Shown in pieces: positions 5,100 through 9,845 of a DNA stretch of 64,000 nucleotides. This DNA is from Leptolyngbyaceae cyanobacterium JSC-12 (GTDB taxonomy: Bacteria > Cyanobacteriota > Cyanobacteriia > Leptolyngbyales > Leptolyngbyaceae). The position numbers and the translations under genes were made by a program. Where the stretch lies: contig CM001633.1 in assembly GCA_000309945.1 (NCBI GenBank), positions 2,266,292 through 2,330,291 of the forward strand, given 5' to 3'. Numbering within the stretch: the first letter of the stretch is position 1; every line of letters begins with the position of its first letter. The notes under the pieces were generated by a model that ran no database searches, was not told the origin of the DNA, and was given only the letters and a program-made list of their open reading frames with translations.

Positions 5100-7235
5100 A
5101 TGCCCAGACGCAAAGCAGCACCGACGGAAATCAATCTTAGTGACCCCCAATATTACTTTAATCGAGAGGCAAGTTGGCTGGAATTTAATAATCGGGTCTT
5201 GCACGAAGCCTTTGACCCTCGCACTCCACTGCTAGAACGCCTCAAATTTTTGGCAATCTTCAGTTCTAACCTGGATGAATACTTTATGGTGCGGGTTGCG
5301 GCCCTCAAACAGCAGGTAGAAGCCAACGTCACTAAGCTCTCAGCAGACGGACGTACTGCCCAGGAGCAATTGGCTTTAATCAGCCAGCGGTTGCGTCCCA
5401 TGGTAACAAAGCAGCATCAACACTTTGAGGCAGCTTTGCGCCCCCAACTTGCTGCCCACGGCGTTTACCTGCTGGACTATATTGACCTTGACCAGGAGCA
5501 ACGCACCTATCTGCAGCACTATTTTGAAGAACAAATCTTCCCAGTGCTGACTCCTCTGGCGATAGACCCCAGTCACCCCTTCCCTTATATTTCCAACCTC
5601 AGCTTGAATCTGGCAGTTGTGATCCAAGATCCTGATCAACAAAAAGACTTGTTTGCCAGAGTCAAAGTTCCTAACAGCCTGCCGCGATTTCTGCCCTTAC
5701 CAGAAGAACTGCGCCGACAAAAGCGAGGCATCCGAGCCATCTGGACAGGCGTTCCTCTGGAACAGGTGATTGCGCATAACCTGACGAGCCTATTTCCAGG
5801 AATGGACATTCAGGAATATCATCCGTTTCGAGTTACCCGTGATAATGACCTGACCCTGGAAGAAGACGAAGCAGAAGATTTGTTACTAGCGATCGAGCAA
5901 GAACTCCGTAAGCGGCGTATAGGTGGCTCTATTGTGCGGCTGGAAGTGCACGCATCTATGCCGGATAGTATTCGAGCCATGCTCCTGGAAGAAATGGACT
6001 TAACTGTAGAAGACCTCTACGACGTACCTGGACTGTTATGCCTGCGGGATGTGATGTCATTCCTGGAACTACCCCTACCAGACCTAAAAGATCCTCCTTG
6101 CGTCTCCTCAGTGCCACCTGCACTCCGTCGAAATGGCGATTCTACCTCTGAAAAAATCGACATTGATGGGGATCTATTCTCCATTCTCCGCAAACAGGAT
6201 GTGATGGTTCATCACCCGTATCATTCATTCTCGCGCACGGTTCAGCGCTTCATTACTGAGGCAGCCCATGACCCAGATGTGCTGGCAATTAAGATGACCA
6301 TGTATCGCACCTCTGGAGATTCACCGATCTTGAATGCCCTGATTGCTGCGGCGGAAAACGGTAAGCAAGTGGCAGTGTTGATGGAAATCAAGGCTCGGTT
6401 TGATGAAGAAAACAATATTATTTGGGCACGGAAGCTAGAAAGTAGTGGGGTCCATGTGGTGTATGGATTAGTGGGGTTAAAAACTCATACTAAAGTAGTG
6501 CTGGTTGTGCGTCGGGAGGAAGGGAGAATTCGTCGCTATGTGCACATTGGGACGGGCAACTACAACCCCAAAACAGCTCGACTCTACACCGATATTGGGC
6601 TATTGAGTAGTCGAGAGGAATTGGGAGCTGATTTAACGGATTTGTTTAATTACTTGACCGGATATGCTAGACAACAGACCTATCGCAAACTGTTGGTGGC
6701 TCCAGTAAGCCTTCGCGATCGCATGACAGCGTTGATTAAACGCGAAGCAGAACACGCCCGCCAAGGGCACCATGCCCGGATTGTTGCCAAAATGAATGCG
6801 CTGATCGATCCACTCATCATTATGGAACTGTATCGAGCTTCGCAGGCAGGGGTACAGGTGGATTTGATTGTGCGGGGCATGTGCTGTTTGCGGCCAGGGG
6901 TACCTGGAATCAGCGATAACATCCGCGTCATAAGCATTGTAGGTCGGTTTTTAGAGCATTCCCGCATTTTTTATTTCCACAACGCTGGCGACGAAGAAAT
7001 TTTCATTGGGAGTGCTGATTGGATGCAACGTAATCTTGATCGCCGGGTGGAAGCAGTTGTGCCGATTGACGATCCTGCGATCGCCGTAGACTTGCAAGAA
7101 ATTTTGGGCATCATGCTAGCAGACAATCGCCAAGCCTGGGATTTACAGCCAGACGGACGCTACATCCAGCGACACCCCACTAACGACAGCCCAGAACAAA
7201 GTTCGCAAAAAATTCTAATGGAGATGGTTCAATAA
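5100..7235 (+). CDS. ppk: Polyphosphate kinase 1
   Basis: Reversibly transfers the gamma phosphate of ATP to polyphosphate. The 711 residues match the full family length. The N domain starts with YFNREASWLEFNNRVLHEA. The catalytic domains carry the autophosphorylated histidine at residue about 463 in GLKTHTKVVL, the block HIGTGNYNPKTARLYTD, and the C-terminal NLDRRVEAVVPI. All key motifs are intact. It follows the 73-residue ORF by 2 bp. Downstream comes a MITE-like repeat and then the sigma-factor leader. No Pho box was identified. Confidence 0.97.
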   Translation: MPRRKAAPTEINLSDPQYYFNREASWLEFNNRVLHEAFDPRTPLLERLKFLAIFSSNLDEYFMVRVAALKQQVEANVTKLSADGRTAQEQLALISQRLRPMVTKQHQHFEAALRPQLAAHGVYLLDYIDLDQEQRTYLQHYFEEQIFPVLTPLAIDPSHPFPYISNLSLNLAVVIQDPDQQKDLFARVKVPNSLPRFLPLPEELRRQKRGIRAIWTGVPLEQVIAHNLTSLFPGMDIQEYHPFRVTRDNDLTLEEDEAEDLLLAIEQELRKRRIGGSIVRLEVHASMPDSIRAMLLEEMDLTVEDLYDVPGLLCLRDVMSFLELPLPDLKDPPCVSSVPPALRRNGDSTSEKIDIDGDLFSILRKQDVMVHHPYHSFSRTVQRFITEAAHDPDVLAIKMTMYRTSGDSPILNALIAAAENGKQVAVLMEIKARFDEENNIIWARKLESSGVHVVYGLVGLKTHTKVVLVVRREEGRIRRYVHIGTGNYNPKTARLYTDIGLLSSREELGADLTDLFNYLTGYARQQTYRKLLVAPVSLRDRMTALIKREAEHARQGHHARIVAKMNALIDPLIIMELYRASQAGVQVDLIVRGMCCLRPGVPGISDNIRVISIVGRFLEHSRIFYFHNAGDEEIFIGSADWMQRNLDRRVEAVVPIDDPAIAVDLQEILGIMLADNRQAWDLQPDGRYIQRHPTNDSPEQSSQKILMEMVQ

Positions 7236-7326: not shown

Positions 7327-7479
7327 GGGAGCACGTCAGTTTTGCAAGTCTCTGCATTTGCCCTCATCCCCCAACCCCTTCTTCTCCCAAGTTTGGGAGA
7401 AGGGGAGTCGAAGCTTCAAGTCCCTCTCCCAAGCTTGGGAGAGGGACTTAGGGTGAGGGCGCAAAGGTGACATGCTCCC
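7327..7479. mobile_element. MITE-like 153-bp repeat, copy 1
   Basis: Near-identical to the repeat at 8947-9099. Its ends are imperfect inverted repeats: the left end GGGAGCACGTCAGTTTTGC and the reverse complement of the right end GGGAGCATGTCACCTTTGC differ at 3 of 19 positions. The 8-bp flanks are CACTTACT (left) and CATTTACT (right), 7 of 8 identical, as a target-site duplication would give. Inside are a 10-bp-stem hairpin (7381-7402) and a perfect 24-bp palindrome (7422-7445, centred on AAGCTT). There is no coding capacity, so it would be a non-autonomous element; the exact end could shift by 1 bp. Confidence 0.7.
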
Positions 7480-7614: not shown

Positions 7615-7668
7615 AACTGTGGAAAACTGATCAACAACTGTGGAAAAAGCACAAATAATTGTGGAAAA
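7615..7668 (+). promoter_or_regulatory. Three TGTGGAAAA boxes in 21-bp phase (cyanobacterial DnaA-box-like iterons)
   Basis: TGTGGAAAA occurs at 7618-7626, 7639-7647 and 7660-7668, in the same orientation and exactly 21 bp apart (two helical turns). Each is preceded by AAC or AAT. The reverse complement TTTTCCACA is the form of DnaA box I recall for cyanobacteria. An AT-rich stretch follows, about 120 bp before the sigma-factor start. This could be DnaA control of the sigma gene or an origin-like site. The repeat is seen directly; the binding protein is inference. Confidence 0.65.
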
Positions 7669-7790
7669 ATAGCATTTGCAATAAAAATTTAAACTTTTTT
7701 TGAAAGAAGCAGTTTCACTTTCCAACTTTTTTGCTAGAGTTGGAGGCAATTTTAATGCAACTTCTCGCTGGTCAATTTATGTGAGTGTGT

Positions 7791-8816
7791 ATGAGTGCCG
7801 AACTGCCTTCCAATTCTGGACAAATTAATTCAATAGAAGCTGACTTGATCGGGCAAGATTTTGATGTCGATCTCGACATTGATCCAGAGATGCTTGATGA
7901 GTTGGACAGAGATATCGAGCCAACTGATTTTGAACCCAGGAAGCCTCCAATTAAGTTTACAAAAGCAGAGCGGCTGGGTTTAACGGATGACTCTGTAGGG
8001 CTATTTCTGCGTGAGATGGCACGTTATCCGCTCCTTACTCAAGCACAAGAAGTTGAGTTAGCGAGAGAAATTGCAAAAGGTGGACCCCAAGCTGAACTCG
8101 CAAAGCGAAAATTAGTCCGTTCAAATCTGCGTTTAGTTGTTTCAATCGCTAAAAAATATCTTAATCGTGGAGTGCCGTTTCTCGATTTAATTCAAGAAGG
8201 GGCGATGGGTTTAATGCGAGCGGCTGAAAAGTTTGATTATGAGCGTGGGTACAAGTTTTCAACCTATGCTTACTGGTGGATTCGGCAAGGAATTACCCGT
8301 GCGATCGCCTCTCAGTCGCGCACAGTTCGCCTGCCTGTGCACATGGTTGAAAAACTCAATCAAGTTCGCAAAGCACGGCAAATGTTATCCCAAAAATTAG
8401 GACGCAAACCAACCAAGCAAGAAATTGCAGCTGAGCTAGATCTCGATGAAGATAAGCTGGAGCATGTGCTCGATGTCAGTCAAGGCACATTATCATTGCA
8501 TGCCTGGGTTGGTCGAGAAGAAGATACCGAATTAATGCAACTGATTGAAGATTCCGATACTATTGCCCCGAATGAATGTTTAGATCACAAATTACTATGC
8601 GATCGCTTGAATTCGGTGTTGGAACATTTGAGTGATCGCGAGCGGGACATTATCAAATTACGATTTGGATTGACTGACGGACAGCACTACACGTTGTCTG
8701 AAATTGGCGAGTTATATCATCTTTCTCGGGAGCGAGTACGGCAAATTCAAGCAAAAGCTATGCGAAAACTGCGGCATCCTCGTCGCCAGGCTTTATTAAA
8801 AGACTGGATGCGTTAA
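7791..8816 (+). CDS. Group 2 RNA polymerase sigma-70 factor
   Basis: Non-essential-type primary-like sigma factor that redirects RNA polymerase under stress or nutrient change. From the ATG at 7791 it has 341 residues (GTG at 7785 is an alternative). After an acidic N-terminal segment come region 1.2 ([16 protein letters not shown]), region 2 ([19 protein letters not shown], then [17 protein letters not shown]), region 3, and region 4 with the [22 protein letters not shown]. The long acidic region 1.1 of the housekeeping RpoD1/SigA is absent. I cannot assign it safely to SigB, C, D or E. The gene sits between two MITE-like repeats. Confidence 0.93.
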
Positions 8817-8946: not shown

Positions 8947-9099
8947 GGGAGTATGTCAGTTTTGCAAGTCTCTGCATTTGCCCTCATCCCCCAACCCCCT
9001 TCTCCCAAACTTGGGAGAAGGGGAGTTGAAGCTTCAAGTCCCTCTCCCAAGCTTGGGAGAGGGATTTAGGGTGAGGGTGCAAAGGTGACATACTCTCCC
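8947..9099. mobile_element. MITE-like 153-bp repeat, copy 2
   Basis: Second copy of the element at 7327-7479, same orientation and length, with a few substitutions. It is flanked on both sides by a perfect 8-bp direct repeat TTTACAGT (8939-8946 and 9100-9107), the signature of a target-site duplication. Ends are GGGAGTATGTCA and TGACATACTCTCCC. It fills most of the 312-bp gap between the sigma gene and pgl; the rest of that gap shows nothing I recognise. Confidence 0.75.
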
Positions 9100-9128: not shown

Positions 9129-9845
9129 ATGGAAAAGATTGTTGAAGTTTTGCCCGATAAATCAACTCTGGTTCTTCGTTCGCTAGAGCTAATTTTGTCT
9201 ATGGCGCAAACTGCGATCGCAGACCGAGGGCGCTTTACAATTGCGCTTTCCGGGGGCAGTACGCCCAAGCCTCTGTACGAAAAATTGGCTCAACAAGATT
9301 TGCCGTGGGACAAAATCCATGTTTTTTGGGGGGATGAGCGGTACGTTCCGGTCGAACACCCCGACAGTAATGAGGGGATGACCCGCCAAGCCTGGCTCAA
9401 CCATATTGCCATTCCTGCTGAAAATATTCATCCAATCCCAACTGGGGCTGGCGATCCAGCAATCGATGCCGCCAAGTACGATGCTGAACTACAAGCATTC
9501 TTTCAAACCGCGCCCGGAGAATTTCCGGTGTTTGACCTGATGCTACAAGGGATGGGCGATGACGGACATACCGCTTCCCTGTTTCCCCATACAGAAGCCC
9601 TGAATGTGCGCGATCGCCTTGTGACTGTTGGCAGCAAAGATGGACAACCCCGCATTACTATAACCGTTCCCTTGATTAATCACGCTCGCACTGTTCTTTT
9701 CCTCGTTGCTGGAGCTAACAAGCAAACAGCACTGCGCCATGTTTTTGCCCCTGAAGGGGACGATGCCCAATACCCGTCTCGGCTCATTCGCCCTCAAGGA
9801 ACGCTTCTGTGGTTGTTAGACCAGGCAGCAGGGCAAGGATTATAG
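9129..9845 (+). CDS. pgl: 6-phosphogluconolactonase
   Basis: Hydrolyses 6-phosphogluconolactone in the oxidative pentose phosphate pathway, the main source of NADPH for cyanobacteria in the dark. The 238 residues match the DevB/Pgl family. Motifs visible are FTIALSGGSTPKPLYEKL near the N-terminus, FWGDERYVPVEHPDSN, and LQGMGDDGHTASLFPHT with the catalytic His. The start at 9129 is the first ATG with full family coverage. It is followed by a tandem 19-bp duplication that includes its stop codon. Confidence 0.95.
   Translation: MEKIVEVLPDKSTLVLRSLELILSMAQTAIADRGRFTIALSGGSTPKPLYEKLAQQDLPWDKIHVFWGDERYVPVEHPDSNEGMTRQAWLNHIAIPAENIHPIPTGAGDPAIDAAKYDAELQAFFQTAPGEFPVFDLMLQGMGDDGHTASLFPHTEALNVRDRLVTVGSKDGQPRITITVPLINHARTVLFLVAGANKQTALRHVFAPEGDDAQYPSRLIRPQGTLLWLLDQAAGQGL

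Follow-up and report, generated by a model that had tools for sequence, protein, structure and literature searches.

Three copies of the nonamer TGTGGAAAA precede a group-2-like sigma gene in the window, which is the whole 64,000-nucleotide stretch of the Leptolyngbyaceae cyanobacterium JSC-12 genome (G000) that was analysed. The copies lie on the forward strand with start-to-start spacings of 21 and 21 bp, and 21 bp corresponds to two helical turns. The reverse complement of the nonamer, TTTTCCACA, is the cyanobacterial box for DnaA, the initiator protein of chromosome replication. The three boxes probably make up a DnaA-binding array outside the origin, placed in the promoter region of the sigma gene, which it would control, and the best reading of the sequence data is a putative lineage-specific DnaA-bound promoter array. 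The array is intergenic, between ppk1 and the sigma gene, and its sequence and positions agree with those of an earlier sequence-only reading of the window. The features are listed in Table 1.

Table 1. Features of the three-box array, the sigma gene and related loci (window positions unless a locus or contig is named).
Feature	Position	Strand	Remarks
DnaA box 1, TGTGGAAAA	7618..7626	+	Extended copy AACTGTGGAAAA at 7615-7626; TTTTCCACA on minus strand; in-register G001 counterpart has one mismatch, TCTGGAAAA
DnaA box 2, TGTGGAAAA	7639..7647	+	Extended copy AACTGTGGAAAA at 7636-7647; no mismatch in the congeners G001 and G002 or in G013
DnaA box 3, TGTGGAAAA	7660..7668	+	Extended copy AATTGTGGAAAA at 7657-7668; perfect in G001 and G002; TGTGGAAAG in G013
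AT-rich block, sigma promoter region	7678..7702	+	Present in box-free orthologues (upstream sequences, alignment)
Putative -10-like element TAGAGT	7735..7740	+	Within the family-wide block TTGCTAGAGTTGGAGGCAATTTTA; orthologue conservation suggests a promoter role
Group-2-like sigma-70 family gene, proposed target	7785..8816	+	GTG at 7785; alternative start ATG at 7791
Likely chromosomal origin next to dnaN	L042:5675-5807 (G000:C1:3049674-3049806)		dnaA about 180 kb away
guaA-linked array	L043:6664-6724		Behind guaA
DUF2811-linked loci	L294-L323, L325-L329; G000:C1:4731475-4731645 and 1167590-1167781		The G000 coordinates are those of the DUF2811 genes

TTTTCCACA has experimental support as a DnaA box in Anabaena 7120, Synechococcus 7942 and Cyanothece 51142 (PMC4674748). 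The nonamer of the sigma array is also identical to that of the dnaN-adjacent cluster of the same genome, which carries boxes in both directions and is the expected origin. The earlier identification of the word as the cyanobacterial DnaA box is borne out by both observations, and from this identity we infer DnaA binding. As the same reading had noted, neither dnaA nor dnaN is nearby; 776 kb separate the array from the dnaN-linked origin, and the only dnaA of the genome is encoded at C1:3227602. An Rfam search at gathering thresholds found no non-coding RNA at seven array loci.

The array is not a product of chance. In the 5.53 Mb genome, a single contig, TGTGGAWAA occurs 138 times, from which about 0.005 same-strand pairs at 20–22 bp are expected per genome. 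Seven TGTGGAAAA pairs are observed, and they fall at five loci: one at the origin beside dnaN, one directly 3′ of guaA, one at each of two DUF2811 genes and one at the sigma gene. Such arrays are therefore extremely rare and not equally frequent elsewhere in the genome. The whole window holds four copies of TGTGGAAAA compared with 0.93 expected, and three of the four are in the array. A reversed control word yields no pair in 42 genomes of the family and none in 194 of the class. Clusters were defined by perfect boxes only, and some of the genomes are incomplete. A functionless relic or chance repeat could account for the lack of the array in most of the family, but this explanation is very unlikely in view of the low expectation, the empty control and the retention of the boxes while the spacers diverged.

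This retention is evident in the two congeners examined (G001 and G002), where the same boxes stand, in phase, before the orthologous sigma gene, which was one of the checks proposed from the sequence. Both congeners have two perfect boxes 21 bp apart and a degenerate third, further upstream by 11 bp in G002 and by exactly 21 bp in G001. Their boxes carry the extended form CTGTGGAAAAC. When G000 and G001 are set in register on the boxes, identity is 26/27 in the boxes, 13/24 in the spacers and 24/100 over the preceding 100 bp (Fisher p = 6e-11, with columns treated as independent), where the ungapped register somewhat lowers the upstream value; a gapped MAFFT alignment gives the same contrast between boxes and background. 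ppk was not found within 1.5 kb upstream of the G001 sigma gene and the boxes are still there, which indicates that the boxes track the sigma gene.

Conservation above background holds for both congeners and partly for G013, a genome of a related genus, but not for the rest of the family. G013 is the only genome outside the genus with boxes at the orthologous sigma gene (one perfect and one one-mismatch box). Most orthologous sigma promoters of the family lack the boxes, including those of the nearer genera G015, G011 and G019/G028, which suggests a recent gain or repeated loss and counts against DnaA control. The gene tree places G013 as sister to a clade uniting the genus with the box-free G011, G015 and G019/G028, so that the distribution is explained by one gain with losses or by two gains. 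Four Nodosilinea-type loci (L079, L080, L081 and L084), with boxes 325–535 bp upstream of a sigma gene, were considered as an independent case and not counted as support, because a divergent PriA-like ORF starts near the boxes and the sigma gene belongs to another clade. In this Nodosilinea/Phormidium tenue group, the boxes lie between the long divergent ORF, labelled PriA-like by eye only, and a group-2-like sigma gene, and they are in tandem in three of the four loci.

The array keeps a fixed geometry to the putative promoter. Box centres lie 94.5 and 73.5 bp from the centre of the -10-like TANNNT in all three congeners (G000, G001 and G002). In G013 the corresponding distances are 84.5 and 63.5 bp, exactly 10 bp shorter, which is one helical turn. 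The -10-like element itself was not picked up by a promoter consensus scan. We propose that DnaA would fill these predicted high-affinity sites next to one another along the same helical face, with box centres about 83, 104 and 125 bp before the predicted start site. Bound DnaA would then alter sigma transcription, so that expression may follow the amount or the nucleotide state of DnaA. Since the boxes lie upstream of the core promoter, activation is slightly more likely than repression. DnaA occupancy, the start site and the effect on sigma transcription are all predicted from the sequence features described above, and the literature searched contained no genome-wide mapping of cyanobacterial DnaA by ChIP-seq.

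The array might instead be a titration or DnaA-control site of the datA or DARS type, which sequesters DnaA or alters its nucleotide state, with the sigma gene an incidental neighbour. All lineages sampled have recurrent arrays outside the origin, and in many genomes the arrays behind guaA stand between two converging genes, a position that makes a role in a promoter unlikely; both observations would fit titration. This explanation is nevertheless rather improbable. Across genera, the sigma array and the promoter block stay in helical phase. The boxes lie on one face, and their distances to the block shift by roughly a full turn from one genus to the other, which favours direct DnaA control over titration. 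In addition, the recurrent arrays do not keep their distance from oriC, unlike E. coli datA and DARS (PMC5010248). Another possibility is that the sites bind a different transcription factor, whose word coincides with the DnaA box. E. coli DnaA prefers double boxes only 2–3 bp apart (PMC11317965), a form not present in the array; this difference in spacing counts against DnaA control and, together with the derivation of DnaA binding from the box word, leaves some room for such a factor. We consider it unlikely, since the dnaN-linked cluster has the same word at the same 21–22 bp tandem spacing and the extended form of the congener boxes also occurs at other arrays. DnaA control of the sigma gene thus remains the preferred reading.

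The sequence-only reading had also suggested a cryptic or accessory replication origin, in which the boxes would act with the adjacent AT-rich stretch. This stretch is real, but box-free orthologues retain one too. Its presence family-wide without boxes points to a feature of the sigma promoter and not to an unwinding element, which makes an accessory origin unlikely. The local GC skew, proposed earlier as a check for an origin, shows a weak change from positive to negative, opposite to that of an origin. Furthermore, the sigma boxes point in one direction whereas dnaN-linked clusters have both, neither dnaN nor dnaA is a neighbour, a dnaN-linked oriC exists elsewhere in the genome, and most of the family lacks the array. 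We therefore reject the accessory origin as highly implausible, chiefly for the box-independent conservation of the AT-rich stretch, the skew direction and the single box orientation. The earlier interpretation is supported in part: its reading of the boxes as DnaA boxes stands, and two of the checks that it named, on the phased array in close relatives and on the frequency of such triplets elsewhere in the genome, did not refute it.

The sigma gene has the co-directional ppk1 (5100-7235) upstream and pgl (9129-9845) downstream. Its product contains regions 1.2, 2, 3 and 4. Its earlier description as a group 2 sigma factor holds for the sigma-70 family and for a group-2-like character, but the curated cut-offs of named subfamilies are not reached: the RpoD, SigB, SigC and SigD NCBIfam models all score below them (TIGR02997, for example, 354.4 compared with 384.5 bits), and only broad models such as TIGR02937 pass. 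Orthologues are present in nearly all sampled genomes of the family. In the gene tree they group in a clade to which none of the other sampled cyanobacterial sigma genes belongs, and among relatives with names, genomes of Leptolyngbya and Stenomitos are the nearest. The gene is flanked at 7336-7475 and 8956-9095 by two near-identical copies of a repeat of about 140 bp that is rich in palindromes and may be a dispersed or MITE-like element; the repeat was not seen in the sigma upstream region of G002. An inverted repeat, CCAAC...GTTGG, spans the -10-like element (7719-7746). The G001 version reads CTAAC...GTTAG, and other orthologues show no clear retention.

The sigma array belongs to a small set of tandem DnaA-box clusters with recurrent neighbours. 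Among 87 such clusters from about thirty family genomes, a sample that covers part of the species of well-sampled genera, 25 adjoin dnaN, 19 guaA and 36 DUF2811. Four adjoin HemJ without a detected DUF2811, two (in the window and in G002) the sigma gene, with the G001 sigma array outside the count, and one lies elsewhere. HemJ accompanies 23 of the 36 DUF2811-linked clusters and a nuclease gene the other 13. The two DUF2811 arrays of G000 itself, about 330 and 420 bp upstream of the gene, lie beside a PD-(D/E)XK nuclease gene and HemJ, respectively. The tandem pattern gave 30 further loci in the class; among the matches listed, the assignable ones adjoin dnaN, DUF2811 or guaA, and five are without assignment.

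The guaA arrays of the family (loci L258, L265 and L292, for example) contain two to four boxes, often at 0/21/52 or 0/21/42, in the direction of the gene and mostly 15–340 bp behind it. They lie between convergent genes in many genomes, which indicates that an array need not imply promoter control, and their placement away from promoters counts against promoter control at the sigma gene. A search for a small gene behind guaA as a possible target of the array gave the convergent F8 gene as the sole clear recurrence.

Of 59 class genomes, 58 encode DUF2811, a small protein, mostly in one or two copies; Synechococcus elongatus also has it. At least one perfect TTTTCCACA lies upstream in 28 of the 29 loci with enough upstream DNA, and the exception, L302, has one-mismatch boxes only. 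The arrays are mostly 230–620 bp before the gene and in its direction, and usually add perfect or one-mismatch boxes at spacings of 11 or 20–23 bp. Across 35 loci, there are 81 perfect boxes compared with two matches to the reversed word. Examples are found in Microcoleus vaginatus HSN003, Stenomitos frigidus ULC18, Calothrix brevissima NIES-22 and Anabaenopsis elenkinii, the last two with just one perfect box each. The class-wide DUF2811 arrays, together with the arrays on the 3′ side of guaA, are a larger result than the sigma array. DUF2811 is uncharacterised: we found no mention of it in the literature searched and no convincing relative among solved structures. From its sequence, a ribbon-helix-helix fold is suspected.

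The role of DnaA outside oriC in cyanobacteria is an open question, and it is sharpest where DnaA is dispensable, as some species replicate without DnaA and dnaA can be deleted (PMC7198777). The arrays offer concrete places for such a role: the sigma gene in one lineage, and the regions before DUF2811 and behind guaA class-wide. Tentatively, they may mark a conserved DnaA regulon outside oriC (DUF2811 and the guaA 3′ region), into which the sigma gene would have been recruited here, so that the level or ATP state of DnaA would set a global transcription programme; DUF2811 might be a partner or regulator of DnaA. In Synechococcus elongatus, DnaA binding to oriC depends on light and photosynthesis (PMC6478999). 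A DnaA-controlled sigma gene, if true, would therefore link energy status directly to the transcription programme.

Compared with known systems, the sigma array shares the identical box word and the 21–22 bp tandem spacing with the cyanobacterial oriC beside dnaN (PMC4674748). It differs in having one box direction and no dnaN, whereas oriC has both directions and dnaN as a neighbour. Like E. coli datA, DARS1 and DARS2, the recurrent cyanobacterial arrays are clusters of DnaA boxes in non-coding DNA, and related genomes have them too. However, datA and DARS act on the nucleotide state of DnaA and keep their relative distance from oriC (PMC5010248), while the recurrent arrays keep their gene neighbours and lie at 6–100% of the half chromosome in chromosome-level genomes, only one of which allows the sigma array to be placed. 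The sequence-only reading had regarded a link between replication state and sigma-factor expression as new. This is not wholly so, since passages of PMC8203912 and PMC11317965 that cite Wang and Kaguni (1989) describe repression of the E. coli rpoH (sigma-32) promoter by DnaA, which gives a DnaA-controlled sigma gene a precedent. In both cases DnaA boxes lie in the promoter region of an alternative sigma-factor gene, but the sigma types are unrelated and the phyla differ. As described in those passages, rpoH has a perfect box and a weak box 2 bp away, whereas the sigma array has three perfect boxes at 21 bp spacing, a good distance before the core promoter. In Bacillus subtilis, DnaA-bound intergenic regions occur outside oriC (Ishikawa et al. 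2007, as cited in a passage of PMC7198777); according to that passage, DnaA regulates transcription there. Those regions were mapped by ChIP, while the cyanobacterial arrays are predicted from sequence and conservation, and the gene set of DUF2811, guaA and the sigma gene is cyanobacterial, unlike that of B. subtilis. In both bacteria the intergenic DnaA-box clusters outside oriC are few, and the sigma array has the features of such a cluster: several boxes, an intergenic position far from oriC and conservation above background.
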